Source: Komagataeibacter oboediens
GTDB taxonomy: Bacteria; Pseudomonadota; Alphaproteobacteria; Acetobacterales; Acetobacteraceae
Length of the DNA: 59,530 bases
Direction of reading: 5' to 3'
Assembly (NCBI RefSeq): GCF_003207815.1
Contig: NZ_NKTX01000017.1
Location: 1 to 59,530, forward strand
The notes beneath the pieces are model-generated. The model did no database searches and was not told the origin of the DNA. It saw only the letters and a program-made list of their open reading frames with translations. Every line of letters begins with the position of its first letter. Within the stretch, counting starts at the first letter, position 1. The position numbers and the translations under genes are program-made. Positions 16,403-32,787 of this stretch are shown piece after piece.

Positions 16403-16416
16403 ATATGTATACATAT
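16403..16416. promoter_or_regulatory. GntR-type operator ATATGTATACATAT
   Basis: A 14-bp perfect palindrome with the core TGTATACA, 49 bases before the alcohol dehydrogenase start. It shares its core with sites at 12003-12012, 24314-24323 and 24471-24480, linking this gene to the divergent thiamine-pyrimidine operons. Confidence 0.65.
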
Positions 16417-16464
16417 GTTGATTTATCCTTGTTCATGATCATTTAGAAAATGGGAGAATTGTCC

Positions 16465-17499
16465 ATGTCTGAAACCGATACCATGCGCGTTGTCCGCTTT
16501 ATGGAACCCAGGCGCCCGTTTGCCCTGCGCGCGGTATCCGTGCCGTCCCCCGGCCCGGATCAGGTGCGCGTGCGCGTTGCCGCATGCGGCGTCTGCCGGA
16601 CCGACCTGCACCTGCGTGACGGGCTGCTTGACCTGGGAAAAAGGGATTTCACCGTAGGCCACGAAATCTCCGGCACCATCGAATCCTGTGGCGACAACGT
16701 ACCCGCGCAATGGCAGGGCAAGCGCGTGGTGATCTATTACTATATCGGCTGCGGCCTGTGCCGGTACTGCCGCAGTGGCGAGGAATATCTGTGCCCCACG
16801 CCCAAGGCGCAGCCCGGCTTTTCCAGCGACGGGGGATACGCCGAAAATATCGTGGTACCGCTGCGCAACTGCGTGCCGCTGCCGGACAATGTGGACATGG
16901 CGGAAGCCGCCCCCATGGGCTGTGCCGGTTCCACTGCGGTACATGCGGGCAAGATGGCTGAAATCCGCCCTGGGGAATGGGTGGTGATCAATGGCGCGGG
17001 CGGCGTTGGCATGGCCGTGGTGCAATATGCACGTTATGCCGGCGGCCGGGTCATTGCGGTGGGCATGGGGGCCGAACGGATGGCGCTGGCCCGGCAACTT
17101 GGCGCGGAATACACGATCGACGCAGCGGAGGTGCCCGATGTCGCGGCCCGTGTGGCGGAAATCACGGGCGAGGGGGCGGACGTCGTTTTCGAACTGGTCG
17201 GCACCAGTGCCACGATGAAGGCCGCCATCACCATGCTGCGTCGACGCGGGCGGATGGTCATGATCGGGTATACCGCCGAGGACTTCCATGTTCATCCCGT
17301 TGAGCTGATCGTGCGTGAAATTACCGTGCGCGGGTCAGTCGGTTCATCGCTTGAGGATCTGTATGAAGCCATCGACCTGCTGGCGCGCGGGGTCATCCAG
17401 TCGCCCGTGGCACGTCGTCACAGTCTTGAAGAATTCGAAACCGCATTGTCCGAAGTGCAGGACGGCGAACTGCCCGGTCGTGTCGTACTGCTTCCGTAA
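16465..17499 (+). CDS. Zinc-dependent alcohol dehydrogenase (MDR family)
   Basis: 344 aa. Catalytic zinc ligands in CGVCRTDLH (C44) and GHEISG (H66, E67); structural zinc cysteines at about 96, 99, 102 and 110 (GCGLCRYCRSGEEYLC); NAD(P)-binding loop NGAGGVGMAVVQYA. It should oxidise a primary or secondary alcohol to an aldehyde or ketone in the cytoplasm. The ATG at 16465 follows GGGAGAATTGTCC; the ATG at 16450 would overlap that ribosome-binding site. Its promoter carries the TGTATACA operator of the thiamine-pyrimidine genes, and it converges on the end of their leftward operon. Oxidation of the hydroxymethyl group of the thiamine pyrimidine is a reasonable guess, together with the aldehyde dehydrogenase at 28213. 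Confidence 0.9.
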   Translation: MSETDTMRVVRFMEPRRPFALRAVSVPSPGPDQVRVRVAACGVCRTDLHLRDGLLDLGKRDFTVGHEISGTIESCGDNVPAQWQGKRVVIYYYIGCGLCRYCRSGEEYLCPTPKAQPGFSSDGGYAENIVVPLRNCVPLPDNVDMAEAAPMGCAGSTAVHAGKMAEIRPGEWVVINGAGGVGMAVVQYARYAGGRVIAVGMGAERMALARQLGAEYTIDAAEVPDVAARVAEITGEGADVVFELVGTSATMKAAITMLRRRGRMVMIGYTAEDFHVHPVELIVREITVRGSVGSSLEDLYEAIDLLARGVIQSPVARRHSLEEFETALSEVQDGELPGRVVLLP

Positions 17500-17505
17500 T
17501 CATGG

Positions 17506-17533
17506 CAGGCAGGGAAGGTCGCTTCCCTGCCTG
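17506..17533. terminator. Bidirectional hairpin between convergent transcripts
   Basis: A perfect 12-bp stem, CAGGCAGGGAAG (17506-17517) with CTTCCCTGCCTG (17522-17533), four-base loop, lying between the stop of the rightward dehydrogenase (17499) and the end of the leftward eight-gene operon (17541). No U-tract follows on either side. Confidence 0.7.
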
Positions 17534-17540
17534 TAACACC

Positions 17541-18377
17541 TTACGCCGCGCTGACTACAAGGCGCTGCAGAAGGGGCACGACAACCGCATCGAATGCTTC
17601 GGGCTGTTCCAGGTAAGGCACGTGGTTTGACTTATCGATAAACACCAGCTCCGGGTTCCCCAGCGCGGTACGGCACGCTTCACCGACCTCGGGCGGGACA
17701 GCCTTGTCCTGCCTGCCCCATACCAGCAGCATTTTCTCTGGCGGATAGAGCGCGGACAGCCGCTCCGCCACATAGTCGGCAGAAATGCCGTTAACCAGAT
17801 AATCCCCCAGTCGACCGAACGCAGCCCCGGCACCAGGGAATGTATTGATCCGCCATTCTTCCTCGATCATGGCCGGGGTAATGCCCGACGTATCGTACAG
17901 GACAAATTTCAGCTTGTTTCCAAACAGGTTTTTATCCTGCACCCGAACGTTCCGGCTGATGGTCTCGGCCACGTCCTGGCTGATCGGCACGACACCCAGT
18001 GCGCCGACCAGAACAAGTCCCGGCACGCGCCCGGGGGCAGTACATGCCGCATAGGCCGCGATATGCGCCCCAAGCGATGTCCCGACCAGCGGGGCGGACT
18101 GGATATCCAGCGTATCCATGACCTGCAGGATGAAATCGGCAATGGCGGGAACGGTCGAGGGCGCCGTTTCTTCCTTGCTGGCAAACCCGTGTCCGGGCAG
18201 GTCGCACGCAATTGCGCGAAAACCCAGCGCACCAATGCGTTCAACGGTCGTACGCCAGCGGTCGGCGCGCGCGCCCAGACCATGGATGAACAGGACGGCG
18301 GGACCGGTTCCGGCCTCGATAATACGGGTAAAGCCGTTGCCAACAGCCAGCGGATAGCAGATGGAGGGAGTGGTCAT
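17541..18377 (-). CDS. Alpha/beta hydrolase, last gene of the Rieske operon
   Basis: 278 aa. Oxyanion-hole motif LFIHGLGA, nucleophile elbow VGTSLGAH (S101), catalytic acid in WGRQDKAVP (D223) and base in KSNHVPYLEQP (H251): a complete triad. Families of this shape include C-C bond hydrolases, esterases and RutD-like hydrolases. It overlaps the RidA-family gene by ATGA, the same gene pair type as RutC-RutD of uracil breakdown, although the rest of the Rut system is absent. It probably hydrolyses a late, ring-opened intermediate in the cytoplasm. It is the most distal gene of an eight-gene operon that begins at 24315. Confidence 0.87.
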   Translation of the reverse strand: MTTPSICYPLAVGNGFTRIIEAGTGPAVLFIHGLGARADRWRTTVERIGALGFRAIACDLPGHGFASKEETAPSTVPAIADFILQVMDTLDIQSAPLVGTSLGAHIAAYAACTAPGRVPGLVLVGALGVVPISQDVAETISRNVRVQDKNLFGNKLKFVLYDTSGITPAMIEEEWRINTFPGAGAAFGRLGDYLVNGISADYVAERLSALYPPEKMLLVWGRQDKAVPPEVGEACRTALGNPELVFIDKSNHVPYLEQPEAFDAVVVPLLQRLVVSAA

Positions 18378-18775
18378 GAAACTGGGCTTTCAGCTAGGGT
18401 TGCGATGGCTTCGATTTCCATCAGGGTGCCATCACCAATCAGTCCGGCAACCTGCACCAGCGTGCTGGCGGGACGCCATTCGCCAAAGATTTCGGACCGC
18501 ACCTGATTCAGCGCGAAACGGTCCTGCAGGTCCGTCAGGAAAAAGGTGAGTTTCACCACATGGCGCAGGTCGGACCCGACACCTTCCAGAATGCGCGACA
18601 GAAGGGCGAAAATATGCCGGGCCTGTGCCTCGGCATCATTCACACCCACCAGGCTGCCATCCTCGGCCAGTGCAAGCAGGCCGGATACATGGATCTGTTC
18701 CCCCGCCAGCACGGCATGCGAATATGGCCCCACCGGCGCGGACAGGCCGGGGGGGCAGAGGGCACGCGGCATCAT
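18374..18775 (-). CDS. RidA/YjgF family enamine/imine deaminase
   Basis: 133 aa, the normal length for the family. The conserved substrate-binding arginine region reads WRPASTLVQVAGLIGDGT and the end MEIEAIA, both hallmarks of RidA proteins, which form trimers and hydrolyse reactive enamines or imines to ketones and ammonia. Both flanking overlaps (ATGATG with the oxygenase small subunit, ATGA with the hydrolase) show tight coupling. In a pathway degrading an aminopyrimidine such an enzyme would deal with aminoacrylate-like products after ring opening. RutC of the uracil pathway belongs to the same superfamily. Confidence 0.88.
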   Translation of the reverse strand: MMPRALCPPGLSAPVGPYSHAVLAGEQIHVSGLLALAEDGSLVGVNDAEAQARHIFALLSRILEGVGSDLRHVVKLTFFLTDLQDRFALNQVRSEIFGEWRPASTLVQVAGLIGDGTLMEIEAIATLAESPVS

Positions 18776-19257
18776 ATCGGCGTGGCCAGCAGGGTCAGGA
18801 TCGCACCGGTATCAACCAGAACCCGCATTTTTGCGATCCGCAGCACGCCGTCGACACGCTTCAGTTCGGCATGGTAGCGCCCGACGCTGAACAGCCGCGT
18901 CTCACCTGCCTGAATGGACTGGAACAGGGAATACGCGGCCGTGGCGGTCCACATACCGTCCTGCGCCGTGACGCGCACCGGGCCGATGATATGGCAGTCG
19001 TAATGAATGTTGAAGACGTTCGCTTCACGCAGGGAATAGACGCGGTCGTCAAGCATATCGCGGCTGTCACACAGCATGAGCGATAGTGGCAGGTTCTGTT
19101 CCACGTTTTCCCGGCTGATGATTTCATAGAGGCAGTCGGGCAGGAACAGGGTTGTCCAGTCTTCCAGCCTGTCCGCGTCCAGAAGACGGCCGTATTCCTC
19201 GAACAACATCGTGACTTCCAGATGCATCTCGGGTGAGATGCCACATATGGCGTTCAT
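18772..19257 (-). CDS. Rieske ring-hydroxylating oxygenase small (beta) subunit
   Basis: 161 aa, matching the NTF2-like beta subunits of benzoate/anthranilate-type dioxygenases: N-terminal helices with EVTMLFEEYGRLLDADRLEDW, then LFLPDCLYEI and the sheet ending in ILTLLATPI. The beta subunit has a structural role, forming alpha3beta3 hexamers with the Rieske subunit encoded directly upstream; the genes overlap by one base at 19257. No catalytic metal is expected. Confidence 0.88.
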   Translation of the reverse strand: MNAICGISPEMHLEVTMLFEEYGRLLDADRLEDWTTLFLPDCLYEIISRENVEQNLPLSLMLCDSRDMLDDRVYSLREANVFNIHYDCHIIGPVRVTAQDGMWTATAAYSLFQSIQAGETRLFSVGRYHAELKRVDGVLRIAKMRVLVDTGAILTLLATPI

Positions 19258-20537
19258 TATGCCGTCTCTCCCGCCCTGATACCCATAAGCTTGCAGTAAT
19301 AGATCCAGAACCCGCGCATCGGCACGTCACTGATCAGGTTTTCCTGATCCGTTACCGGGCCACGGCCACCGAATTCGACAATGGAATGCTTGTCCATGTC
19401 CCGCACGATGGCACGGTGCACCAGTTCAACCGCTTCGCCATCCTCCATCGAGACCAGACCCGCAGGCCCCGCCAGATTCGCCTTGCGCAGGCGGTGACGC
19501 GTCATGGCCTCATCATCATCTTCGTAGCCGAAAAAGGTCGAGACGATTTCAAACTCATCGGCTGAACGCGGGCGCAACTGGCGTACGGCCAACGTATTGC
19601 CGATCTGCTGCAACGCCGCATTGGCAAACAGCGATGTCACCGCCAGCGTCAGATTGTCGGGAAATTCCTTGTAGTAACGCAGAAGGGAGGGATCCTTCAG
19701 CTTGATGTTCATGTCCCCACGGTCGGTCCCGGCATAGCCGCCATCGCTGGCGCCGTCCTGATCCGTGCGTCCCCCCTGTGCAGCCCAGGACAGGTTATGC
19801 TTGCCATCGGCGTCCACGCGCGCGCCGCCGGTCCCGCTCAGGCGCGCAATGCCGAAGGTGATCTGGAACATGTGCAGCAGACCGCCATGGTTGGGGTCGC
19901 GCAGGTTGTCCGTATAAAGCTTCCAGTTGCCGAAAATCCTCTGGCGCTGGTAGCCCAGGACCTTGACGGGCTTATGAAACAGCCGCTTGACCTGATGGGT
20001 GAACACCGGGCCCAGATACTCCTCCAGCGGCGGTGTCTCCTCGCAGAAGGTGCCGAAAATGGCGCCGTTCATCGTTTCCACCCGCAGGCGCTGCAGGTTG
20101 TGGCAGGCCTTGTCAAAATCGGCGGGCAGTCCGCCCACCCCCTTGATCCCCTTCTGGAACGGCACGCCGATCAGCTTGCCTGTCAGGTCAAAGGACCACT
20201 GGTGGTAGCAGCAGGTGTGCACCTTGGTATTGCCATGCAGGTTGCGCTGCACTTCCGCCCCGCGGTGGCTGCACCGGTTGACAAGGGCATGCAGGCTGCC
20301 GTCGCGCGCACGGTTGACGATGACCGGCGTATCGCCCACCTCAATCAGGCGGTAATCACCCGGATTGGGAATCTCCGCTTCCAGCGCAAGGTAATTCCAT
20401 ATCGGGCCACGAAAGATACGTTCCTGTTCCAGTTCGAATACGTCAGGATCGCGGTACATGCCGTATGGTATGCGACTACAGTCAGCCGCGGGGAAAGTAT
20501 AGCGTGACAGGGCATCAGCCCCGGCGGGTGCGGTCAT
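19257..20537 (-). CDS. Rieske ring-hydroxylating oxygenase large (alpha) subunit, anthranilate-dioxygenase-like
   Basis: 426 aa from the ATG at 20537 (ribosome-binding GGAG upstream). The [2Fe-2S] Rieske site is C89/H91 (CSHRG) and C109/H112 (CCYHQW). The mononuclear iron site is D214, H217, H222 in NLRDPNHGGLLH, with the acidic third ligand in the later GPAGLVSMEDGE region. The sequence style is closest to the AndAc/salicylate-hydroxylase group. These enzymes add O2 to aromatic acids, often removing carboxylate and amino groups. In this operon a 4-amino-pyrimidine-5-carboxylate, an ortho-amino acid like anthranilate, would be a logical substrate (inference). No ferredoxin or reductase gene is nearby, so electrons must come from elsewhere. 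Confidence 0.93.
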   Translation of the reverse strand: MTAPAGADALSRYTFPAADCSRIPYGMYRDPDVFELEQERIFRGPIWNYLALEAEIPNPGDYRLIEVGDTPVIVNRARDGSLHALVNRCSHRGAEVQRNLHGNTKVHTCCYHQWSFDLTGKLIGVPFQKGIKGVGGLPADFDKACHNLQRLRVETMNGAIFGTFCEETPPLEEYLGPVFTHQVKRLFHKPVKVLGYQRQRIFGNWKLYTDNLRDPNHGGLLHMFQITFGIARLSGTGGARVDADGKHNLSWAAQGGRTDQDGASDGGYAGTDRGDMNIKLKDPSLLRYYKEFPDNLTLAVTSLFANAALQQIGNTLAVRQLRPRSADEFEIVSTFFGYEDDDEAMTRHRLRKANLAGPAGLVSMEDGEAVELVHRAIVRDMDKHSIVEFGGRGPVTDQENLISDVPMRGFWIYYCKLMGIRAGETA

Positions 20538-20580
20538 GAAGGATACTCCGTATGGGTCGATCCGGAATGTGGAAAGGGCA

Positions 20581-21927
20581 CTATGGCAACTGCATTGGCG
20601 TATGGCCGGTGGACGCGCGGGTGTATGTCCGCGTCCAGTATCCCTGCGCGTTTTCACAGGGGTGACGTGGTATCTCCATCGGCATGTCAGGCAGCACGAC
20701 ACGCGCACCGCCAAGCCAGACATCCGTCATGCGTTTCCTGTCTTCAAGCTGCGTGATATCGGCCAGCGGGTCACCGTCAAACACAAGCAGGTCAGCCAGT
20801 TTTCCCGGTGCTATGCTGTCAAACTCCTGGCCACCACGCAGCAGGCAGCGGTTGCGGTGCGTTGCCGTACGCAGCACCTCGTCGGTCGGCATGCCAAGGA
20901 AGCTGACAAGGATCGACAGTTCCCGGGTTGCCCATTCGCCATAGGGCGTCATGGAGAAGCCGGTTTCGGATCCACTCAGGATCGGAACGCCTGCGTCATA
21001 CGCGCGGCGCAGGTTATCGGTCGCTTCCGCCAGTTCCTGACGCTGCACGTTGGGCCACCAGTCATAGGACGGGTCATCGGGCTGGGCATACTGGATGTTG
21101 TTGACCAGCATGAGCAGGGAAGGGCAGATCGTGCAGCCTTCCCCCGCAGCGGCGCGCACGCCTTCGTCATCAATGCGGGAAGCATGATAGAGGATGTCCG
21201 CCCCGGCGCGCGCGGCATACAGCACGCCTTCGCGCCCGCGGGCATGTATGGCGACCCGGCGGCCAAGGCGGTGGGCCTCCCGGATCATGGCCGTCGTTTC
21301 ATCCTGCGTGAAGGTTGCATACAGGCCACCCGAATTGCCGCCCTGTATCCCGTCCATCGCGATCTTGATGATATCGACGCCATCCTTTGTCTGCTGACGG
21401 ATGGCCTCGATCGCCTCGGGAAGGGATGTGACCAGCCGGCCGGTCGAACATGGCGGGCAGCCGATCCATGACGGATAATAGTCATAAAGCCCCTGGCGGG
21501 CCGTCAGGGCCTGCCCGGCTGCGGTAATGCGCGGCCCCTGGAACATCCCGACATACAGGGCATTGCGCAGCGATGGCGTGACCAGACCCGCGCAGGCGGG
21601 GTCCAGCAGGCTGGTAAAGCCTGCGGCCAGCATGCGCTGGGCCGCCGCCAAAGCACGGATGGCGCGGTATTCCAGATTGGGGTAAAGATCCACTTCCTCT
21701 TCCGAACGGGCATTGCCGTACGACAGGTGGGTGTGCAGATCGCTCAGTCCCGGCATGACCAGGTGGCGGCTGTAATCAACCACCACGTCATCAGGACCGG
21801 GAGCGGGCAGGGAGGCTGCGGGATAAAGGCCCACAATACGGCCATCTTCGATCACCAGTGCGTGATCATGGCGGTAGGTGGACTCCGTGCCGGTAAAGAC
21901 ACGCCCGCATTTCAGAATGGTTCTCAT
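20581..21927 (-). CDS. Amidohydrolase of the imidazolonepropionase/cyclic amidase type
   Basis: 448 aa from the ATG at 21927, which overlaps the upstream hydrolase stop. The metal motif HLVMPGLSDLHTHLS gives the two N-terminal His ligands; a Lys is present in DIIKIAMDG; further His ligands lie in VAIHARG and ILYHAS; the final Asp is probably replaced or shifted, because the region reads LSGSETGFSM. This corresponds to the binuclear-type amidohydrolases acting on cyclic amides, imidazolones or peptides. Within the Rieske operon it is the best candidate for hydrolytic opening of an oxidised pyrimidine ring. Substrate not determinable from sequence. Confidence 0.85.
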   Translation of the reverse strand: MRTILKCGRVFTGTESTYRHDHALVIEDGRIVGLYPAASLPAPGPDDVVVDYSRHLVMPGLSDLHTHLSYGNARSEEEVDLYPNLEYRAIRALAAAQRMLAAGFTSLLDPACAGLVTPSLRNALYVGMFQGPRITAAGQALTARQGLYDYYPSWIGCPPCSTGRLVTSLPEAIEAIRQQTKDGVDIIKIAMDGIQGGNSGGLYATFTQDETTAMIREAHRLGRRVAIHARGREGVLYAARAGADILYHASRIDDEGVRAAAGEGCTICPSLLMLVNNIQYAQPDDPSYDWWPNVQRQELAEATDNLRRAYDAGVPILSGSETGFSMTPYGEWATRELSILVSFLGMPTDEVLRTATHRNRCLLRGGQEFDSIAPGKLADLLVFDGDPLADITQLEDRKRMTDVWLGGARVVLPDMPMEIPRHPCENAQGYWTRTYTRASTGHTPMQLP

Positions 21928-22784
21928 GCGGAATATCCGGTGGCTAGAAGCAGAAGGGAAAGCGCTGCGTCCACATCCGCTGCCCGTTCGGACATGATGG
22001 CATGACCGCAGTCGCCCAGAAGGGTCAGATCGGCATGGGGCATATGGTCCAGCACCAGTCGGGCCATGGGGCCGGGCGGACATGCCCGGTCCTGCAGGCC
22101 GTGCAGGATGCGGACGGGCATGCGTATGGTGGATGCCTCCCTTGCCGGAAGGGATGCCGCCAGCAGGCAGGCATCGGGATCGGCCAGCATGGCGGCAAAG
22201 GCGGCGCGGCGCGCGCTGTCGCCTGCGGCCTGCCAGCGGGCCTCCACCACCATGGATGGCGGGGGGGCGCAATCGGCTGTCATCGGGCGCATGGCCGCCG
22301 CCAGCGCCGCACGGTCGGCCGGGGCGGACCAGAAATCACGCAGCGCAGGTGTTGCCTGCCGCTGCCCCGCCGGGGCGCCGATAACCATGACCCCACGCAG
22401 GGAAGGACGCCGTGCCGCCACGCGCAGCGACAGCGCGCCGCCGACCGAATTGCCAATCAGGTGGGCATCCGGCCCGGCATGGTCCAGCACCCGGTCAACC
22501 TGTTCGATCCACAGCGGCACATCGAAGGTACATGTCCTGCCGGGCGGCACGGCGCCGCCAAAACCGATCAGGTCGATAACGTGCACGTCATGGCCAGCGG
22601 GCAACCGGGCCAGCAGGGGGGCAAAATTAATCTGCCCCGTCGTGCCCGGACCGATGCCATGAACCAGTACCAGTGGGGGAGCCCCGCCCGTGCCACGGCG
22701 GATGCGCCATGAAAAGTTGATGTCGTCCACCCTGTCATGCGCCTGGACCCACTGCTGGGCCGCACCCTGTGCCGGGGCGTTCAT
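21924..22784 (-). CDS. Alpha/beta hydrolase
   Basis: 286 aa. HGIGPGTTG forms the oxyanion region, LIGNSVGGAL carries the nucleophile serine, LHGLQDRACPP the acid and DCGHAIMSE the catalytic His. It differs clearly from the second alpha/beta hydrolase of the same operon (17541-18377), so two distinct hydrolytic steps are likely. Start at 22784 overlaps the permease stop (ATGA). Probable role: hydrolysis of an ester, amide or beta-diketone-like intermediate in the cytoplasm. Confidence 0.85.
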   Translation of the reverse strand: MNAPAQGAAQQWVQAHDRVDDINFSWRIRRGTGGAPPLVLVHGIGPGTTGQINFAPLLARLPAGHDVHVIDLIGFGGAVPPGRTCTFDVPLWIEQVDRVLDHAGPDAHLIGNSVGGALSLRVAARRPSLRGVMVIGAPAGQRQATPALRDFWSAPADRAALAAAMRPMTADCAPPPSMVVEARWQAAGDSARRAAFAAMLADPDACLLAASLPAREASTIRMPVRILHGLQDRACPPGPMARLVLDHMPHADLTLLGDCGHAIMSERAADVDAALSLLLLATGYSA

Positions 22785-23542
22785 CGGGCTGCCCCGCCAT
22801 TGCCGGGCGCCCAGTACAGGATGCGGCGCAGGACCCGGTCCACCACCGTCCAGATCAGGACCGTCATGACCGCCAGCACGAACAGAGCAGCAAACATGAC
22901 ATCGGTCTGTATGCGGGCATTGGCGTTCAGCATGACATAGCCCAGCCCTGCGGACGCGCCCACCCATTCACCCACGATCGCACCGATGGGCGCGATGGCC
23001 GTGGCGACACGCAGCCCGGACCCGAAGGCCGGCATGGCTGCGGGCAGCCGCACATGGCGCAGGATGGCACCCTGTTTCGCCCCCATTGTATGGGCCAAGT
23101 CCAGCCAGCCGGGATCGGTATGGCGCAACCCATCGGAAAATGCGGCGGCGACGGGAAAGAAAATGACAATGGTGGCCATGACCACCTTCGACATCATGCC
23201 GAACCCGAACCACAGCACCAGAAGCGGCGCCATGGCAAAGGCCGGGATGGCCTGACTCAGCAGCAGCAGCGGCATGATCCAGCGCTGCAGGCGCGGGGAA
23301 AAGGCCATTGCCAGCGCACACAGGCTACCCAGAAGCGTGCCGATGGCCAGCCCGAGCGCCATTTCGGAAAATGTGGTGAATGTGGCTGACGCCAGCAGCA
23401 TGCGCTGCTGCCACAGTGCATGCAGCACGGCGGGCGGCTGCGGCAGCAGGTAGAACGGAATGCTGCCCAGACGTGTCACAGCCCACCATGCGCCGATCAG
23501 CACGACAAACGTGACAACGGGCCGGACCAGTGTCGGGATCAT
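22781..23542 (-). CDS. thiX: ABC transporter permease, ThiX-like
   Basis: 253 aa with about six membrane helices. The ATPase-contact loop reads TMGAKQGAILRHVRLPAAMP and the end of the core is GEWVGASAGLGYVMLNANARIQTD, which agrees with ThiX permeases of the thiamine-pyrimidine (HMP precursor) transporter. It overlaps the ATPase gene by ATGA. The assignment rests mainly on the partner binding protein at 24535, which is clearly ThiY-like. It would pass a pyrimidine compound into the cytoplasm. Confidence 0.85.
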   Translation of the reverse strand: MIPTLVRPVVTFVVLIGAWWAVTRLGSIPFYLLPQPPAVLHALWQQRMLLASATFTTFSEMALGLAIGTLLGSLCALAMAFSPRLQRWIMPLLLLSQAIPAFAMAPLLVLWFGFGMMSKVVMATIVIFFPVAAAFSDGLRHTDPGWLDLAHTMGAKQGAILRHVRLPAAMPAFGSGLRVATAIAPIGAIVGEWVGASAGLGYVMLNANARIQTDVMFAALFVLAVMTVLIWTVVDRVLRRILYWAPGNGGAAR

Positions 23543-24315: not shown

Positions 24316-24323
24316 GTATACAA
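24314..24323. promoter_or_regulatory. GntR-type operator at the thiZ start codon
   Basis: ATGTATACAA with the core TGTATACA at 24315-24322; it overlaps the first base of the thiZ start codon on the other strand. It is one of two copies in the 219-base divergent region between thiZ and thiY. Confidence 0.6.
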
Positions 24324-24470: not shown

Positions 24471-24480
24471 ATGTATACAT
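24471..24480. promoter_or_regulatory. GntR-type operator upstream of thiY
   Basis: Perfect 10-bp palindrome ATGTATACAT, ending 54 bases before the thiY start. Identical core to the sites near 12007, 16410 and 24318. The rest of the 24316-24534 region is AT-rich promoter-like DNA without other recognised sites; no TPP riboswitch is seen. Confidence 0.65.
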
Positions 24481-24534
24481 TTTGGTGAATGTTCTTTTTT
24501 GGCGACATGTCCGGATGAACAGAAAAGGCAGCAC

Positions 24535-25587: not shown

Positions 25588-25952
25588 GAGCCAACGCCCC
25601 CCGGATCGATCCGGCCGACCTTGACCCGGTGCGTGAATTCCGGGCCTGCCCCATTGGTTTGCACAGCCCCGCGCTGGAAGCGATGCTGAATATCCTGCGC
25701 GCGGGAACAATGGGCGGGAAATACTGCATCATCTGCCTAGAACCCCACAGAAAATGGGCGCTGGGCCGCCTGTCGGGCATACGCGGCGTACCACCGGAGG
25801 TCGTGCCCGCCGTGGAATATGACGACCTTGAAGAAGCGGAATGGGATGTTTTCCGCCGACGGTGGGAGGCGGAAACCCGCACGCGCCTGCCCCCCGAATT
25901 CGACGCCCCCCTGCGCGAAACGCCCACGAACAGGGCAGGAGAAAGCCGATGA
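25584..25952 (+). CDS. dmfA1: N,N-dimethylformamidase-like small subunit
   Basis: 122 aa, close to the size of the DMFase alpha (small) subunit, and encoded immediately before a DMFase-like large subunit as in Paracoccus. It contains HRKWALGRLSGIRG and an acidic C-terminal part (VEYDDLEEAEWDVFRRRW). The small subunit is thought to stabilise the heterotetramer and carries no known catalytic residue. Both junctions are ATGA overlaps (with thiY upstream and the large subunit downstream), so stoichiometric synthesis is likely. The call depends largely on size, order and the strong large-subunit match. Confidence 0.75.
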   Translation: MRANAPRIDPADLDPVREFRACPIGLHSPALEAMLNILRAGTMGGKYCIICLEPHRKWALGRLSGIRGVPPEVVPAVEYDDLEEAEWDVFRRRWEAETRTRLPPEFDAPLRETPTNRAGESR

Positions 25953-28177
25953 AAACCCTGCTTGGCTATGCCGACCAGATCAGCGTGACGGCGGGAGACG
26001 AAATTGCGTTCCGTGTCAGCAGCGAAACGGCCGAAGCGTATGACGCCACGATCGTGCGGATTGTAAATGGTGACCTGAACCCTGCTGGTTCCGGCTACCG
26101 CGAGGAAGAAGTGTCCGGCACCGCATGGCATATCCAGGGCCGGCCACAGAAGATTCACGCGGGTTCGTGCATCGTGGTTGACGCGGCGGTGCCGCTGGAA
26201 CGCCTGGCCGATGGCTGGAGTGTCACGCTGCTGGCACGTCCGACCCTGCCGGACAGCAGCGGGCAGGACGGGACCGGACAGGTCATGTTCAGCCTGCGCG
26301 ATCGTATGTCGGGCGGCGGAATGGAAATTGGCATAAAGGGGGAAGAAGGCGCTTACGTCACGGTGCAGGGCAGTCAGGCACGCGTGACCTGTGCCGCGGG
26401 CGTGCCCATGCGCCGCCATGAATGGTACAGGCTCCGCGTCGCATTTGACGCCGCAAAGGGCGAACTGACCCTGTCGCAGGCGGCGCTGGAAAGCTGCGCC
26501 GGCATTGCCGACAGCGCGGACGTCACGGTTGCCTGCTCCGTTGAACCGGCATGGACATCCGCCGCGCGCATCATCATCGCGGCCCGCGCCACCGCCGAAG
26601 GCGAAACCATTTTTGGTGGGTTCTATAATGGCAAGCTCGAAGCGCCCTGCCTGCTGGACCACGCGGGCGCAGTGATCGGGCAGTGGGACTTTTCCATCGG
26701 GATCGACGGACAGGACATATGCGATCAGGGACCATTCCACCTGCATGGTCATACTTGGCAGATGCCCGGACGCGCCATGACCGGCCACAACTGGAACGGC
26801 AGCATACGCGCATGGCAGGATGCGCCGGAACAGTATGGCGCCATTCATTTCCATGAAGACGATATTATTGACGCGGGATGGGCCACGGATTTTTCGTGGC
26901 AGGTTCCCCCAGGTCTGAAAAGCGGGCTTTATGCCGCCCGCCTGCGCAGTGCGACAGACGAGGACCATATCCCCTTTGTCATCCGTCGCACAGCGGGCAC
27001 AGGGCATGCACCGCTGGTTTTTGTCCTGCCGACCGCAAGTTACCTGGCATACGCCAACGAACATCTTGCCATTGATGCCGCGCTGGCGGAGCGGGTGCAC
27101 GACCACGTGCCCGTATTTGGCGCGTCGGACGTATTTCTGGCGGAACGGCGCGAATTCGGCGCATCGCTGTATGACCGGCACATCGACGGGTCGGGCATCA
27201 TGATATCCTCGCGCCTGCGCCCGGTGCTGAACATGCGCCCCAAATATCAGTCATGGCTTGGGGGAACCGGGTCGGGCCTGTGGCAGATGAACGCCGACAC
27301 GCATATCATCGACTGGCTGGAACACGAAGGTTTTGACTACGACATCATTACCGACGAGGACCTGGACCGCGAAGGGATAAAGGCACTTTCCCCCTATCGG
27401 TGCGTCATGCTGGCCAGCCACCCTGAATATGTCTCGACCCGGATGCTTGATGCGCTGGCGGCGCACCGTGCGGATGGCGGGCGACTGGTGTCGCTGGGGG
27501 GCAACGCGCTGTACTGGCGCGTGGTCTATCACCCCATCATGCCCGGCGTGATGGAATTGCGCCGTTGCGAGGTCGGCAATGGCTGGATTACCGACCCGGG
27601 TGAAAGCTGCCATGCCTTTGGCGGTGAATATGGTGGCCTGTGGGAACGCATCGGCCGTCCGCCGCACGAAACGCTGGGATCAGGCTTTATCGGACAGGGT
27701 TTTGACAAATGCACCTATTTCCGCCGGCAGGCGGACAGCTACAACCCGCGCGTGACCTTCATATTTGACGGAATAGAGGGCGACATCATCGGGGATTTCG
27801 GGCTGATTGGCGGGGGGGCCGCAGGCATAGAACTGGACCGTGCCAACAGCGCGAAGGGCACGCCGCTGAACACGCTGGTACTGGCGCGGTCGGAAGGGCA
27901 TACCAACACCTATCTTCCCTCGACCTGTGCGCTGCTGATCAATTACGCGGGGCAGGGGGCGGCGCAGTCCGACCTTGTCCGTGCCGAAATCGTATTTTTC
28001 GAAACAGCCGAAGGCGGCGCGGTCTTTTCCACCGGTTCGATCGCATGGAGCGGCAGCCTGTCCCATGCGGATTACGACAATTCCGTCTCCCGCATGACGG
28101 GCAATGTCGTGCGGCGCTTTATCGACCCGGCACCCTTTGAACTGCCTGCATCGGCAGCCAGACCCGTCTCTTTCTGA
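25949..28177 (+). CDS. dmfA2: N,N-dimethylformamidase-like large subunit (iron amidohydrolase)
   Basis: 742 aa, similar in size to the DMFase large subunit. An N-terminal half with beta-sandwich/lectin-like character (about 1-340) is followed by the DMFase catalytic C-terminal half. The family's metal site is a mononuclear Fe(III) bound by two Tyr and one Glu next to a His; here HPE (H491, E493 in LASHPEYVS) is present, with Tyr candidates at 365, 368, 408 and 433 (ASYLAYAN, SLYDRH, RPKYQSW). Known members hydrolyse dimethylformamide and related simple amides. Inside a thiY operon it may deformylate formyl-aminopyrimidine, or cleave an amide after ring opening. Start at 25949 overlaps the small-subunit stop. 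Confidence 0.87.
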   Translation: MKTLLGYADQISVTAGDEIAFRVSSETAEAYDATIVRIVNGDLNPAGSGYREEEVSGTAWHIQGRPQKIHAGSCIVVDAAVPLERLADGWSVTLLARPTLPDSSGQDGTGQVMFSLRDRMSGGGMEIGIKGEEGAYVTVQGSQARVTCAAGVPMRRHEWYRLRVAFDAAKGELTLSQAALESCAGIADSADVTVACSVEPAWTSAARIIIAARATAEGETIFGGFYNGKLEAPCLLDHAGAVIGQWDFSIGIDGQDICDQGPFHLHGHTWQMPGRAMTGHNWNGSIRAWQDAPEQYGAIHFHEDDIIDAGWATDFSWQVPPGLKSGLYAARLRSATDEDHIPFVIRRTAGTGHAPLVFVLPTASYLAYANEHLAIDAALAERVHDHVPVFGASDVFLAERREFGASLYDRHIDGSGIMISSRLRPVLNMRPKYQSWLGGTGSGLWQMNADTHIIDWLEHEGFDYDIITDEDLDREGIKALSPYRCVMLASHPEYVSTRMLDALAAHRADGGRLVSLGGNALYWRVVYHPIMPGVMELRRCEVGNGWITDPGESCHAFGGEYGGLWERIGRPPHETLGSGFIGQGFDKCTYFRRQADSYNPRVTFIFDGIEGDIIGDFGLIGGGAAGIELDRANSAKGTPLNTLVLARSEGHTNTYLPSTCALLINYAGQGAAQSDLVRAEIVFFETAEGGAVFSTGSIAWSGSLSHADYDNSVSRMTGNVVRRFIDPAPFELPASAARPVSF

Positions 28178-28212
28178 AAAAGATGAAGATACATGATGAA
28201 AAGGATTTCGCG

Positions 28213-29724
28213 ATGACGGCTTCCCGCATGGAACCCGACCTTGCAACCCTGCTGGGGCCGGATGCGTCCGCCATCCTGTCAGCGCCGCATCGTAATTTCA
28301 TTGATGGCCAGTGGCGTGACAGCCTGTCGGGGGAAACCTTTCCCGTGACCGACCCGGCAACCGGGCAGGAAATCACACGCATTCCCCTGTCGGGCAGCGC
28401 GGATGTCGACCTTGCAGTGGCCAGCGCGCGCCGTGCGCTGCAGGACGGACCATGGGCGCGCATGAACGGCGCGGAGCGTGGCCGCCTGCTGTGGCGGCTG
28501 GCCGACCTGCTGGCGCAGCAGACGGACGTGTTCGCCCGCCTGGAGGCGCTTGATACCGGGCGGCCGGTTTTTGAAACCCGCCTTGTGGACCTGCCCGGAT
28601 CGATCGGCATGCTGGAATACATGGCAGGCTGGTCCACCAAGATAAACGGGGAAAGCATACCCGTATCCGCCCCCGGCACGTTCCATGCCTATACCGAACG
28701 TGAACCGGTTGGCGTGGTGGCGGTTATCGTGCCGTGGAATTACCCGTTGGAGCTGGCAATATGGCGCATGGCCCCGGCACTGGCGGCCGGGTGCACCGTG
28801 GTCCTCAAGCCCGCGGAACAGACGGCACTGACCACGCTGCATCTGGGCCGCCTGATCGCGGAAGCAGGCTTCCCGTCCGGCGTTGTCAATATCGTGTCGG
28901 GGGAAGGTGAAACCGCCGGGGCGGCGCTTGCCGGACATGGGGATGTCAACGCGATCTCCTTTACCGGTTCCACGCAGGTCGGGCGCGAAATCATCCGCGC
29001 GGCAGCGGGGAACATGAAGCGGGTCTTTCTGGAACTTGGCGGCAAATCGCCCATGATCGTGCTGGACGATGCCGATCTGGAACAGGCGGTGCCGGGTATT
29101 GCATCCGCCATTTTCTTCAGCGCGGGGCAGGTCTGTACGGCGGGGTCGCGCGTGTTCGTGCACGAACGCATATATGACCGCCTGCTTGATGGCATTGTCG
29201 CCTTTGCCCGCAACCTGGAAATCGGGCACGGTCTGAATGATGCCACCCGCCTTGGCCCGCTGGTTTCAGCCGAGCAGCGTGACAGGGTAGCCGGGTATCT
29301 GGCGGAAGCAGCGCGCACCGGCACACACTTCGCGACGGGTGGCGCACCGGTTGATGGCCCGGGCTATTTCATGCAGCCGACCATTGCGGTTGATGTCGAC
29401 CCACAGGCGGCACTGTACCGTGAGGAAATTTTCGGCCCGGTCCTGTGTGTCCGACGTTTTGGCGATGACCAGATCGATGATGTCGTGCGCATGGCCAATG
29501 ACACGATCTACGGCCTGCACGCCAGTATCTGGACAACCGGCCTGTCACGCGCCCACACCCTGGCGCGGCGCATCAAGGCAGGCAATGTATGCATCAACAC
29601 GCATAATTTCTTCGATCCTGCGTTTCCCATGGGCGGGTTCAAGCAGTCGGGCTGGGGACGCGCTGCGGGTTTCCCTGCTATAGAGCATTATACGGAACTG
29701 AAGGGAATTGTTGCGCGCCTATGA
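28213..29724 (+). CDS. NAD(P)-dependent aldehyde dehydrogenase
   Basis: 503 aa from the ATG at 28213, which has AAAGGA upstream; an ATG at 28183 is less likely. Complete ALDH motif set: PWNYP, cofactor-binding SFTGSTQVG, catalytic Glu in LELGGKSPM and nucleophile Cys in FFSAGQVCTAGSR, ending with GGFKQSGWGR. It oxidises an aldehyde to a carboxylic acid in the cytoplasm. Betaine-, gamma-aminobutyraldehyde- and aromatic-aldehyde enzymes all look like this, so the substrate must come from context. With the alcohol dehydrogenase at 16465 it could carry a hydroxymethyl group to the carboxylate needed by the Rieske oxygenase. Its stop overlaps the GntR gene by ATGA. Confidence 0.93.
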   Translation: MTASRMEPDLATLLGPDASAILSAPHRNFIDGQWRDSLSGETFPVTDPATGQEITRIPLSGSADVDLAVASARRALQDGPWARMNGAERGRLLWRLADLLAQQTDVFARLEALDTGRPVFETRLVDLPGSIGMLEYMAGWSTKINGESIPVSAPGTFHAYTEREPVGVVAVIVPWNYPLELAIWRMAPALAAGCTVVLKPAEQTALTTLHLGRLIAEAGFPSGVVNIVSGEGETAGAALAGHGDVNAISFTGSTQVGREIIRAAAGNMKRVFLELGGKSPMIVLDDADLEQAVPGIASAIFFSAGQVCTAGSRVFVHERIYDRLLDGIVAFARNLEIGHGLNDATRLGPLVSAEQRDRVAGYLAEAARTGTHFATGGAPVDGPGYFMQPTIAVDVDPQAALYREEIFGPVLCVRRFGDDQIDDVVRMANDTIYGLHASIWTTGLSRAHTLARRIKAGNVCINTHNFFDPAFPMGGFKQSGWGRAAGFPAIEHYTELKGIVARL

Positions 29725-30443
29725 CCGATGAAGATGCACTGACAGGAAACGTCACGCCGGCAACAGCCCGGGCGCGGGGCCGCCGCACCGCCCGCAAGGG
29801 GACGACGCGCGCGCCCACGCTGGCCAGTATCGTGCAGGAGCGTATCCAGAAGGCGATCGTATCCGGGGTCTTTACGCCCGGCATGTGGCTGGAGGAAGAA
29901 AGCCTGGGGCAGATGTTCAGTGTATCGCGCACGCCGGTGCGCGAGGCGCTGCGCCGCCTTGCCGCGCAGGGGACAGTTGAAATCCGCCCCCGTCAGGGCG
30001 TGATCGTCACCAAAATGAATGATGCCCGCGTATTGCAGACGCTGGAAGTCATAGCCGAACTTGAAGCAGCAACCGCAAGACTTGCGGCAGAACGCATGAG
30101 CGACGCGGAACGCGACAACCTGCATACGATCAACGAAGAACTGTCAGACATCATACGCAAGGGCAGCCGTGCCGGTTTCGACCGGCATAACGAACGCCTG
30201 CATGCCGCAATCAGGCAGGGTGCCCATAACGAGATCATGGCCGATTCCGTGGCGCAGATGCGCCAGCGCGTGCTGCCCTATACACGCGTCGAACGGATGG
30301 AATCAGTCGAACAGATGACCGTATCCCACGGCCAGCACCAGACGATTGTCTTTGCCATTCTGGAAGGACACGGCGAACTGGCTTACCAGACAATGCGCGT
30401 GCACGTCATGCAGACAGGCCAGCTGGCTGAAGACGGGGAATGA
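29721..30443 (+). CDS. GntR family regulator, FCD (FadR/VanR) subfamily
   Basis: 240 aa. A basic N-terminus (RARGRRTARKG) leads into the winged helix-turn-helix (VQERIQKAIVSGVFTPG, then LGQMFSVSRTPVREALRRLAAQG). The all-helical FCD ligand domain follows, with His-containing segments (DRHNERLH, SHGQHQTIV, RVHV) that usually bind a metal next to the effector acid. It lies within the catabolic operon and is the obvious candidate to bind the TGTATACA palindromes at the three promoter regions. Most such regulators are repressors released by a pathway substrate or product, often a carboxylate. Confidence 0.9.
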   Translation: MTDEDALTGNVTPATARARGRRTARKGTTRAPTLASIVQERIQKAIVSGVFTPGMWLEEESLGQMFSVSRTPVREALRRLAAQGTVEIRPRQGVIVTKMNDARVLQTLEVIAELEAATARLAAERMSDAERDNLHTINEELSDIIRKGSRAGFDRHNERLHAAIRQGAHNEIMADSVAQMRQRVLPYTRVERMESVEQMTVSHGQHQTIVFAILEGHGELAYQTMRVHVMQTGQLAEDGE

Positions 30444-30501
30444 ACCATCCGGCCGGCAATCCACCACAGCAGGGCACGCCAGATAGAGAAAGCATGCAGA
30501 C

Positions 30502-31212
30502 ATGAATATCCAGACAGGACCGGATACCACCCCCGAATGCATCAAGGGGACGTTTTTTGCACGGCTGCGCAACGCGGCGCCGGCCGCGTGGCAGGGTTAC
30601 GTGGGACACCCGTTCGTACGCGGCATGGCGGATGGCACGCTGGATCCCGCGCGGTTCCGGGCGTTTCTCATGCAGGATTACCTGTACCTGCTCAATTACG
30701 CCCGGGCGTACGCGCTTGCGGTCTATAAAAGCGACAGTTTTGAAGAAATGCGGGAATCGGCCGATATCGTAGCGGGTATCCTGAATACGGAAATGGCCAT
30801 GCATTTTTCGTATTGCGAAGGCTGGGGCCTTAGCCGCGCAGAAATGGAAGCCCATCCCCCAGCGCAGGAACTGCGTGCCTATGCGGGCTTCATCCTTGAC
30901 CGCGCGCAGGCAGGCGACCTGCTTGACCTCCTGGTGGCACTTTCGGCCTGCCTGGTGGGATATGGCGAAATCGGTCTGGCGCTGGCGAATGATCCGGCGA
31001 CCGTGCGCGAAGGCAATCCCTATTTCTCCTGGGTCAGCGTCTATGCCGATGAACCCTACCAGGACCTGATGCGCAGGGGCCTAAGCCGCCTTGATATCGT
31101 GGCCGCCCGGCGCGGGGGCGTGGCACGCCTGCCGGAACTGACGCGCCTGTTCACGACGGCCGTATCGCTGGAAACCGCTTTCTGGACCGCCGGACAGGCG
31201 GAGATGACGTAA
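30502..31212 (+). CDS. tenA: TenA family aminopyrimidine aminohydrolase (thiaminase II)
   Basis: 236 aa helical protein. The TenA active site is preserved: acidic residue D59 in FLMQDYLYLL, catalytic Cys C150 in ALSACLVGYGEIG and Glu E224 in SLETAFW. TenA hydrolyses 4-amino-5-aminomethyl-2-methylpyrimidine to HMP and can cleave thiamine. It is 58 bases after the GntR gene and just before a thiaminase-I-like gene. In salvage it would feed HMP to thiamine synthesis; here no thiD or thiE is present and the neighbours are oxidative, so it may feed breakdown. Confidence 0.9.
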   Translation: MNIQTGPDTTPECIKGTFFARLRNAAPAAWQGYVGHPFVRGMADGTLDPARFRAFLMQDYLYLLNYARAYALAVYKSDSFEEMRESADIVAGILNTEMAMHFSYCEGWGLSRAEMEAHPPAQELRAYAGFILDRAQAGDLLDLLVALSACLVGYGEIGLALANDPATVREGNPYFSWVSVYADEPYQDLMRRGLSRLDIVAARRGGVARLPELTRLFTTAVSLETAFWTAGQAEMT

Positions 31213-31275
31213 ATATACAACGCCATCATGGCAGCATGACAGCACACGGCTACAGTACAACGACAGGATACCGGT

Positions 31276-32787
31276 ATGTCTTCAGCAAGTAATCGCCAGC
31301 GTGTCATGCGGTCACACGGTGCGCCGGTGCGACAGGGGGCGGGGCTGTGCGCCCTCATGGGAATGCTGGCGCTGCCGCATGCGGCGCTGTGCGGTGATCT
31401 GGTTATCCGCAATACAGGCGCGGCAGATGCACAATGCCACATCGTGGACAGCGGCAGGGCGGATGCCGTCTTTACCGTAAAGGCGCAGGACACGGCGCAT
31501 GTGGGCGTCCCGGCTGGCGGCATGATCAACAGTGTTGAATGCAACGGCCTGAAAACCCGTGAAATGCACATAACCCCAAAGGGAATGGACGGGTACGTCG
31601 TGCTGAACGGCAGGCAGAAGCGCGTGCTGAATGTATCGCTCTATCCATTCATTCCCAGCCTGCCAAACGGCAATTTCCAGACACTGGTCCAGCATGTCAT
31701 CACCACCTATCAGGACAGCAACCCGGACGTGCTGCTGAACGCCGTAATGAGCGAGGACGTGGATATCTATAATCCCGCCCGCCTGCTGCAGCTCCTGTCC
31801 GGCAGGGGGTATGATGTCGTCGAACTGGATACGTTATACATCGAATTCCTTGCCGCCCATAAACGCATCGCGCCGGTACGCATAAGCGGGGACGCCCCAT
31901 GGCAACCGGGCCACGATGCGGTACTGTACCATGGCGTGACCTATGCCGTGCCAAGCTGGCTGTGTCTCGATTTCCTCTATTCCTATTCCCCGGATATCAA
32001 GGACATACATGGACTGGATCAGTTCATGTCCTACCTCAATCGCGAACCGGCGGGAAAACGCCATATTTCCGCTGATTTTTCAGGCACGACCCGCCTGCCG
32101 TCCCTTTATATAGACGGATACGTGCAACGTTATGGCTATGACCATATCCGCGATGCCTTCCGTATGCCGCCCGACCCGCAGGTCGTGAACAGCCTCATGC
32201 GCCTCGCCATTACCTGCACGGATGGGAAGGAAAACCATTGTGTTGACGGGACGCTCAGCCGCGCCGCGGATGGTGATGTCGACAGGATCTTTGCCGAAGG
32301 AAAAAGCGGTTTTGATATCGGTTTTTCTGAACAGAGCTTCTATATCAACCTGTTCAACCCCACCCATGCCGCATCCCTTGCCATGATCCCCGTGCCATGG
32401 GGCGAAAATGGCCAGACCATGCTGTACAGCGATGCCTTTGTCACGAACAGGACATCATGTTCCAGTGCGTCATGCCAGGCCGACAGCACCGCATTCACGA
32501 CCATGATGACGGGAAAGGAAATAAAGACATATATCGCCTTTTCCCAGGATTTGCCGCAGGGAACGCCCGCACGACACCTTCTGGTCGGCACCCGTCCGTT
32601 CTGGGATCAGCAGCAGGTTCGTGACGATCCCGTCTACAGCCAGGTCAGGACTGTTATCGAAACGGGTCAGGCGTTTCCGCATGACCTGAATGAATCCCTG
32701 CGCGACCGGATGGCGCGGGATGTATGCCTCATGCTCAGGAAAGATATTCCCCAGTATGACTGCGACATGACGAAGGGACCTATGTAG
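31276..32787 (+). CDS. Secreted thiaminase-I-like protein (thiamine pyridinylase family)
   Basis: 503 aa. N-terminal signal sequence to about residue 40 (GLCALMGMLALPHAALCG), then a 75-residue beta-rich stretch not found in classic thiaminase I, then the family domain from LNVSLYPFIPSLPNGNFQTL (119-138). The thiaminase I catalytic Cys is C230 in YAVPSWLCLDFLY, equivalent to the Cys in PQILC of the Paenibacillus enzyme, and the catalytic Glu is E352 in DIGFSEQSF; their spacing (122) is close to the known enzyme (128). Thiaminase I exchanges the thiazole of thiamine for another base. The start may be 31276 or the ATG at 31306. It follows tenA by 63 bases. Confidence 0.8.
   Translation: MSSASNRQRVMRSHGAPVRQGAGLCALMGMLALPHAALCGDLVIRNTGAADAQCHIVDSGRADAVFTVKAQDTAHVGVPAGGMINSVECNGLKTREMHITPKGMDGYVVLNGRQKRVLNVSLYPFIPSLPNGNFQTLVQHVITTYQDSNPDVLLNAVMSEDVDIYNPARLLQLLSGRGYDVVELDTLYIEFLAAHKRIAPVRISGDAPWQPGHDAVLYHGVTYAVPSWLCLDFLYSYSPDIKDIHGLDQFMSYLNREPAGKRHISADFSGTTRLPSLYIDGYVQRYGYDHIRDAFRMPPDPQVVNSLMRLAITCTDGKENHCVDGTLSRAADGDVDRIFAEGKSGFDIGFSEQSFYINLFNPTHAASLAMIPVPWGENGQTMLYSDAFVTNRTSCSSASCQADSTAFTTMMTGKEIKTYIAFSQDLPQGTPARHLLVGTRPFWDQQQVRDDPVYSQVRTVIETGQAFPHDLNESLRDRMARDVCLMLRKDIPQYDCDMTKGPM

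Follow-up and report, generated by a model that had tools for sequence, protein, structure and literature searches.

In Bacillus and Paenibacillus, base-degraded thiamine is salvaged by the ThiXYZ-YlmB-TenA system, in which a ThiY-type binding protein, an ABC permease and ATPase, the deformylase YlmB and TenA work together. A gene set with similarities to this system lies at 16403-32787 of a 59,530-nucleotide stretch of DNA from Komagataeibacter oboediens (assembly GCF_003207815.1, contig NZ_NKTX01000017.1, positions 1 to 59,530; hereafter, the window). As in the salvage system, a ThiY-type protein, a permease with its ATPase, TenA and an enzyme in the place of the deformylase are encoded. However, the module differs in that an iron amidase of the N,N-dimethylformamidase (DMFase) type would replace YlmB, in that it carries a GntR-type palindrome, TGTATACA, rather than a thiamine pyrophosphate (TPP) riboswitch, and in that an oxidative, ring-degrading set is attached to it. 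The whole is likely to form a catabolic regulon under GntR control that serves to degrade the pyrimidine half of thiamine.

The remaining parts also have described counterparts. The Rut uracil pathway shares with the module RidA (as RutC) and a RutD-like alpha/beta hydrolase, and luciferase-like monooxygenases, which belong to the RutA superfamily, are found in three relatives, whereas a Rieske enzyme and an amidohydrolase occupy the ring-opening place. Aryl-carboxylate Rieske oxygenases (TphA2, NagG, AndAc, AhdA1c) have the same alpha/beta subunits, Fe ligands and R309-type carboxylate anchor, but the module enzyme forms a clade apart from the AndAc rows, has lost R390 and N224 and is proposed to act on an N-heterocycle. 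The N,N-dimethylformamidase 6lvb is likewise made of a large and a small subunit and has the Tyr-Tyr-Glu iron site, His519 and Asn547 found by equivalence in the window enzyme (DMFaseB), while the latter belongs to a clade of its own, tied to ThiY and TenA. Thiaminase I (2thi, 4kys) is matched by a window protein over its catalytic part, including Cys113 and Glu241, although this protein has an N-terminal extra stretch and a degradative regulon as its setting. The enzyme families are thus known, but the combined pathway was not found in print; in the open-licence literature, with older and subscription work outside the scope, no published work was found on genes for breakdown of the hydroxymethylpyrimidine (HMP) ring or on an assembled pathway.

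A shared palindrome and a recurrent gene set

An earlier, sequence-only reading of this DNA had placed these genes in a single regulon, and the shared palindrome supports this. An exact gapped-palindrome search gave a single match, which led to TGTATACA. The window holds four sites against 0.18 expected, a number reached in 0 of 100 shuffles, and the core stretches of nine loci hold 16 sites against 0.22 expected, distributed over eight of the nine; among 64 palindromes of equal GC content TGTATACA is the best in these stretches, the next best having three sites. According to the table of open reading frames (ORFs), 15 of the 16 sites lie in gaps between core genes or at likely gene starts, and the remaining one, at 6465 of the bog locus, falls within the 3' portion of the amidohydrolase gene, close to where the Rieske gene begins. 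No site occurs in 34 control loci (250,710 bases), one of which (L007) is part of another (L028) and some of which come from module-bearing genomes. Since a GntR gene is present in every one of the nine loci, its product is probably the protein that binds TGTATACA.

The start proposed by the sequence-only reading, 16403, lies 3 bases before the probable operator at 16406-16413, and a fourth site further upstream tentatively marks the outer edge of the regulon. This site is also present in K. intermedius TF2 (L033 18515), but a search of K. rhaeticus that tolerated at most one mismatch did not find it, nor was TGTATACA found upstream of the alcohol dehydrogenase (ADH) gene in that species. At 9348-12120, the TonB receptor gene and the adjoining plus-strand gene share the longer form TTGTATACAA at 12003-12012.

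The nine lineages derive from a search of 84,980 species genomes against the Rieske alpha alignment, which used two peptide patterns only, was not exhaustive and returned eight loci; the window and genome G217 were added, and K. intermedius TF2 was subtracted as a near copy (L033 and L047, with the module order of the window and proteins 96-100% identical). They are the window, K. rhaeticus, Tanticharoenia, Acetobacteraceae bog_908 (G178), G217, an Acidocella metagenome-assembled genome (MAG), Pseudomonas typographi, Pseudomonas sp. MWU16-30317 and Ramlibacter aurantiacus. In all nine, tblastn located the Rieske beta subunit, the amidohydrolase, the alpha/beta hydrolase ABH1, the ABC permease and ATPase, GntR and the ThiY-type protein, the last on a second contig in Acidocella. 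ADH at 54% identity or more is present in eight of nine (54-91% identical to the window protein in seven of the eight other lineages), and a second alpha/beta hydrolase, ABH2, in six. Five lineages (window, K. rhaeticus, bog, G217 and Acidocella) have both DMFaseB (tblastn identity of at least 50%) and TenA, and the remaining four have neither. The genes run ThiY, small subunit, DMFaseB, TenA and luciferase-like monooxygenase in G217, and in Acidocella DMFaseB, ThiY and TenA share one contig.

Among 397 genomes of the family, matches to the Rieske clade of at least 858 bits occur in five (G000, G305, G178, G217, G048), the next match scoring 534, and thiaminase I also occurs in five (G000, G305, G048, G178, G428), four of which are common to both. 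The hypergeometric tail of this overlap, in a test that ignores the tree, is 2.4e-8 by genome and 9.2e-5 by genus (3 common, with 4 and 4 of 102 genera). The joint occurrence of ThiY, TenA and the Rieske pair, which the sequence-only reading had suggested looking for, holds for ThiY with the Rieske clade in all nine lineages, whereas TenA follows in five only. A link of the gene set to thiamine fragments is supported by ThiY, TenA, thiaminase I and this co-occurrence at genome level. The gene set is best described as real, rare, patchily distributed and catabolic, and most likely serves the thiamine pyrimidine.

A proposed route for the thiamine pyrimidine

Observed here are the families, catalytic residues, palindrome, conservation and co-occurrence, whereas the substrates and their order are deduced from enzyme families and known pathways. 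The route would start with a secreted or periplasmic thiaminase I that cuts thiamine. Queried as a single sequence, the window homologue gave no Pfam, NCBIfam or thiaminase PDB match. A profile of six members, consisting of the window protein and homologues from four other genomes, one of them contributing two (L048, L041, L042, L043, L024), matches the solved thiaminase I chains 2thi (E 8.4e-30), 4kys (1.7e-19) and 4hcw (3.7e-10), as well as 3thi and 4thi, and Cys113 and Glu241 of 2thi align to C230 and E352 of the window protein, as counted on the printed alignment, and are invariant in all six. The thiaminase-I-like protein of the sequence-only reading is confirmed by this profile and its catalytic pair, and the homologue is predicted to cleave thiamine. 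At 31276-31620, about 80 extra residues follow the likely signal peptide and precede the catalytic part. Tanticharoenia, which lacks TenA, has two homologues; the gene of one adjoins a TonB receptor gene on one side and a PnuC-family transporter gene on the other, and hydroxyethylthiazole kinase ThiM is encoded within a few kb. In G428 (L044 13767-17102), where the family search gave no Rieske-clade match, the genes after thiaminase I encode a PnuC-family transporter and an ADH that shares 63% identity with the window protein. Both contexts suit thiamine fragments. The row at 211-9187 of Tanticharoenia L046, comprising sulfurtransferase-like and LysR-like ORFs (by eye), a luciferase-like monooxygenase, ThiM, the TonB receptor, thiaminase I and the PnuC-family transporter, is perhaps a thiazole-handling set.

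ThiXYZ would then import pyrimidine fragments, namely N-formylaminopyrimidine (FAMP), HMP or relatives. The solved chain closest to the ThiY-type protein is 3ix1, a FAMP-binding ThiY (E 2.7e-30), followed at 4.7e-16 by the next, the chains after 3ix1 being 4nmy and THI5/THI13, which supports uptake of thiamine pyrimidine fragments by the window protein.

In place of YlmB, the DMFase-type enzyme is probably the deformylase of FAMP, itself an N-alkylformamide, and would feed TenA; this early position is suggested by its presence and absence together with TenA, near a ThiY whose closest solved chain binds FAMP. The sequence-only reading had it cutting amides at the end of the pathway, a role that was set aside because its distribution follows TenA, and it is missing from lineages that keep the core. 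The heteromer itself stands, since the small-subunit ORF, which overlaps the large-subunit start, travels with the large subunit: relatives lie directly upstream of it in K. rhaeticus, the bog MAG, G217 and Acidocella, and also beside many other DMFase-type genes of the family. Equivalents of Y399, Y440, H519, E521 and N547 are found in all five large-subunit rows. The four TenA-linked rows in the tree (window, K. rhaeticus, bog, G217) form one clade (support 100/99), and all four have Ile in the place of Phe693; the Acidocella row, whose reading holds a stop, was left out of the tree and of this comparison. Window DMFaseB is 88% identical to that of K. rhaeticus, 55% to bog or G217, 51% to the sister pair G084/G148, which also has Ile at this place, and 38-45% to other rows. 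For the characterised DMFase, PMC7686228 gives catalytic efficiencies of 6166.7 for N-methylformamide, 2104 for N-ethylformamide and 256.5 for N,N-dimethylformamide and no activity on acetamide, so that N-alkylformamides are its best substrates. Since Phe693, which makes the pocket narrow, is replaced, room for a larger amine part is plausible in the window enzyme. Family matches include an N-acetyl-beta-phenylalanine acylase (8huy), so the acyl range of the family is not fixed.

TenA would convert the aminopyrimidine into HMP. The window protein passes the NCBIfam thiaminase II model TIGR04306, and five aligned rows share the Cys of CxVGY(G/A)E and the Glu of LExxFW, which we take to be the active-site residues. 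A second TENA-family (PF03070) match in the same genome (L001) is probably PqqC, because its neighbours are metallo-beta-lactamase-fold and radical SAM/SPASM proteins, presumably a pqq-like neighbourhood. In Tanticharoenia and Pseudomonas, PF03070 matches scoring about 193-197 bits were also read as PqqC-like, owing to their score and to loci without a tblastn match to window TenA; both Pseudomonas have additional partial matches below 40 bits.

ADH and the aldehyde dehydrogenase (ALDH) would oxidize HMP to 4-amino-2-methylpyrimidine-5-carboxylate. ADH matches zinc-ADH families, with none of the best 25 NCBIfam-type models passing its own cut-off. The Rieske enzyme would then hold the 5-carboxylate by its conserved Arg and oxygenate the ring. 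The solved chains closest to its alpha subunit are terephthalate dioxygenase TphA2 (7q04), 7vju and salicylate 5-hydroxylase. Passages of PMC9060491 describe R309 as binding the substrate carboxylate and as conserved in TphA2, NagG, AndAc, AhdA1c and hydroxypicolinate monooxygenase, and assign N224, S243 and R390 to the second carboxylate of terephthalate. In the ten clade rows (window, K. intermedius TF2 and eight others), the equivalents of R309 and S243 are invariant and the His/His/Asp iron ligands are kept, whereas N224 and R390 are replaced by Ala and Leu, so that S243 alone remains of the terephthalate set; an aromatic monocarboxylate is thus the best guess for the substrate. The proposed 5-carboxylate is, like anthranilate, an amino-ortho-carboxylate. 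That ADH and ALDH accompany a Rieske enzyme keeping the carboxylate Arg agrees with the sequence-only reading, but its view that this compound is treated as anthranilate would be is an analogy only, because the Rieske rows of the nine lineages form one clade (support 97/94, with Ramlibacter on a long branch) separate from two rows of anthranilate 1,2-dioxygenase AndAc, to which the alpha subunit is 46-47% identical. A Rieske pair in G161 (52%) was set aside, as it keeps R390 and falls outside the clade. On a Thioclava plasmid (L105 5974-13221) another Rieske gene, which branches with G161, stands with RidA, an RraA-like protein, ferredoxin, GntR and an ABC transporter, a set different from the module.

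The amidohydrolase, RidA and the alpha/beta hydrolases would open and dismantle the ring. One AndAc locus encodes a ring-cleavage enzyme of catechol type and none was found in the module loci among the ORFs scanned by Pfam (part of the ORFs), and a product whose ring is opened hydrolytically would suit these enzymes. The RutD equivalog cut-off is 238.5 bits, of which ABH1 reaches 42.7. Likeness of ABH1 and ABH2 to the enamide hydrolase of the vitamin B6 pathway was considered and rejected: the PDB matches (best 60 of 242 for ABH1, all 58 for ABH2) name meta-cleavage-product hydrolases, esterases and other alpha/beta hydrolases. The products would be ammonia, a C3 acid and, from C2 and the methyl group, acetamide or acetate. 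The site of oxygenation and the order of ring opening are the least certain parts, the latter being a guess: loss of CO2 and ammonia might give 5-hydroxy-2-methylpyrimidin-4-one, whose cyclic amide could be hydrolysed first, with RidA and the alpha/beta hydrolases then splitting the enamine and the amide. Amidase genes stand beside the bog, G217 and Acidocella modules (56% identical between bog and G217, and about 30-36% to both over partial stretches in Acidocella) and, with an FmdA-type gene in Acidocella, would suit acetamide release. Moreover, luciferase-like monooxygenases at the module in bog, G217 and Tanticharoenia are 67-75% identical, and a second pair (72% identical) adjoins ThiM in Tanticharoenia and lies near TenA in bog; thiamine or its thiazole may be the substrate of these enzymes. 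Among the window genes scanned, no enzyme of this kind was recognised.

A complete mineralising route, in which an iron DMFase-type formamidase is a non-homologous replacement of YlmB, a new Rieske subfamily dearomatises 4-amino-2-methylpyrimidine-5-carboxylate, a cyclic-amide hydrolase, RidA and alpha/beta hydrolases finish the degradation, and luciferase-like monooxygenases of some relatives attack thiamine itself or its thiazole half, is put forward tentatively, with somewhat less than an even chance of being right in full.

Weighing other explanations

Several observations weigh against a regulon for the thiamine pyrimidine. TGTATACA was discovered on the same loci in which it was later counted, so that the controls and the site positions carry the weight, and it is absent from the Ramlibacter locus and from the K. 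rhaeticus stretch L048 with ALDH, TenA and thiaminase. Similarly, the thiaminase profile was built partly from genomes that were then counted. Thiaminase I is restricted to four of nine lineages, as TenA with close DMFaseB is to five, and the two Pseudomonas loci are tied to thiamine by ThiY alone, their DMFase paralogues (37-40% identical) lying elsewhere. RidA was not found in bog (8/9), which also has only a 111-residue match to ALDH, full-length in 7/9, and Ramlibacter is a loose variant with partners 25-45% identical, SDRs (short-chain dehydrogenases/reductases) for ADH and no ALDH in the locus. The TenA score exceeds its cut-off slightly (131.6 against 130 bits). The nearest solved relatives of the amidohydrolase are named amide hydrolases, Xaa-Pro dipeptidase and similar, which leaves a cyclic substrate to inference. 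No Rieske reductase was seen in a reading confined to the window; among the loci, a reductase that has Fer2 and NAD domains is encoded beside ADH in the two Pseudomonas loci only (for example at L034 444-1505). According to PMC7686228, the characterised DMFase cuts larger amides poorly because Phe693 narrows its pocket, which speaks against FAMP as a substrate of that enzyme. Around DMFaseB of G084 and G148, neither TenA nor ThiY was found within the stretches read (20.0 and 14.7 kb), which means that DMFaseB may originally have served a different purpose, and its agreement with TenA may rest on few events. Finally, no TPP riboswitch was found in the window or at the module in relatives, the sole match (Ramlibacter L036) being at thiC. 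This thiC, with its riboswitch, lies directly downstream of the module variant (14099-16084).

The alternative that survives best, although unlikely, is that the core degrades another HMP-like N-heteroaromatic alcohol, aldehyde or carboxylate and that thiaminase I, TenA and DMFase are later additions in Acetobacteraceae. Several ligands are bound by NMT1/THI5-like proteins, four of nine lineages lack TenA and close DMFaseB, and thiaminase I was not found in either Pseudomonas, in Ramlibacter, in Acidocella or in G217. However, window ThiY is far closer to the FAMP-binding chain than to the next solved one, and Tanticharoenia, without TenA, has two thiaminase I homologues in the context given above.

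That the genes serve salvage only, with ThiXYZ, DMFase and TenA delivering HMP to ThiD and with ADH, ALDH, Rieske and hydrolase genes as an unrelated adjoining catabolic operon, seems about as unlikely. ThiXYZ with YlmB and TenA is a known route, as passages of PMC5627462 describe, and thiD and two PF02581 (thiE-type) matches are present elsewhere in the genome; the absence of thiD, thiE or other synthesis genes noted in the sequence-only reading thus holds for the window as scanned but not for the genome. HMP can also be synthesised, because the genome has thiC, whose TPP riboswitch scores below threshold (46.4 bits, cut-off 54.3); the module would then be catabolism alongside synthesis. Moreover, both halves share the palindrome and recur together in five lineages, the ThiX/ThiZ genes of the Acetobacteraceae, Acidocella and Pseudomonas loci run in one series with those for the Rieske enzyme and the hydrolases, and TPP riboswitches accompany tenA and such a transporter in the Paenibacillus genomes of PMC5627462, whereas the window has none. 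Detoxification of thiamine antivitamins such as bacimethrin, or their fragments, is very improbable, for although natural pyrimidine antivitamins exist and are probably taken up by HMP transporters (as stated in part of PMC12345177), a thiaminase with a full oxidative set is more than needed and none of the genes scanned was recognised as serving antivitamin synthesis.

Genes of the locus, its surroundings and its meaning

All the gene families named in the sequence-only reading are found at 16403-32787; of its interpretation, the regulon and the thiamine-fragment link are supported and the late role of DMFase has changed. The starts at 20537, 21927, 22784 and 25949 are the most likely ones.

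Table 1. Probable operators and genes of the module (window coordinates).
Feature	Position	Strand	Remarks
Fourth TGTATACA site	12004..12011		Between TonB receptor (9348-11870, -) and + strand gene (12057-13190)
Probable GntR operator TGTATACA	16406..16413		Upstream of ADH; same place in K. intermedius TF2
Zinc alcohol dehydrogenase (ADH)	16450..17499	+	Proposed HMP to 5-aldehyde
Alpha/beta hydrolase ABH1	17541..18377	-	Meta-cleavage-product-hydrolase/RutD-like
RidA family (enamine/imine deaminase)	18374..18775	-	PF01042
Rieske oxygenase beta subunit	18772..19257	-	PF00866
Rieske oxygenase alpha subunit, aryl-carboxylate subfamily	19257..20537	-	426 aa; start inferred
Amidohydrolase	20581..21927	-	448 aa; start inferred; proposed ring opening
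Alpha/beta hydrolase ABH2	21924..22784	-	286 aa; start inferred
ABC permease, ThiX-type	22781..23542	-	PF00528
ABC ATPase, ThiZ-type	23539..24315	-	PF00005
Probable operator TGTATACA	24315..24322		At ThiZ start
Probable operator TGTATACA	24472..24479		Upstream of ThiY
ThiY-type binding protein	24535..25587	+	PF09084, E 2.9e-51
DMFase-type small subunit	25584..25952	+	122-aa ORF; no Pfam match
DMFase-type large subunit (DMFaseB)	25949..28177	+	Proposed FAMP deformylase
Aldehyde dehydrogenase (ALDH)	28183..29724	+	PF00171; proposed 5-aldehyde to 5-carboxylate
GntR/FCD regulator	29721..30443	+	Proposed binder of TGTATACA
TenA, thiaminase II	30502..31212	+	
Thiaminase I homologue	31276..32787	+	Likely signal peptide (by eye) and N-terminal extra stretch

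Adjoining ADH, at 13323-15973, are a cytosine/purine/thiamine-type permease (PF02133) and a CodA-like amidohydrolase, a pair at which TGTATACA was not found and which is kept in K. rhaeticus and K. intermedius TF2 and unmatched beside the module in other lineages. On the other side, 32811-38819 holds a separate set, also present in K. intermedius TF2, with a second NMT1-type transporter that has a 531-residue double-length permease, a creatininase-family protein, a weakly dehydratase-like protein (NF002958) and a 202-residue protein without assigned role. More NMT1/NMT1_2 transporters are located at 1-8000 and 52255-58336, one with an amidohydrolase and another with a rubredoxin-reductase fusion, a weakly acyl-CoA-dehydrogenase-like protein and OsmC, and the contig is thus rich in uptake modules. 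A plasmid home was discarded, as none of 72,556 plasmid records covers 80% of the module by megablast and no plasmid-borne copy of the Rieske gene at 60% identity or more was found in 74 records.

Discussion of how thiamine is lost in nature mostly centres on its cleavage, its chemical decay or its salvage. In the passages available, PMC12815266 concerns thiamine salvage and synthesis, PMC4475313, with a "unique thiamine degradation pathway" in its title, concerns thiaminase I and thiM, and PMC5627462 terms thiaminase I enigmatic. Genes that destroy the pyrimidine ring of thiamine would supply an end point for thiamine loss, and the proposed 5-carboxylate was isolated from rat urine as a thiamine metabolite in 1964, according to the title of a reference cited in PMC7780320. 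The module also suggests a job for thiaminase I, namely food supply, and offers enzymes, a regulator and an operator that can be tested. Thus, vinegar-type bacteria and a few soil relatives share a rare set of genes, probably under one switch, apparently for using the pyrimidine ring of vitamin B1 as food.

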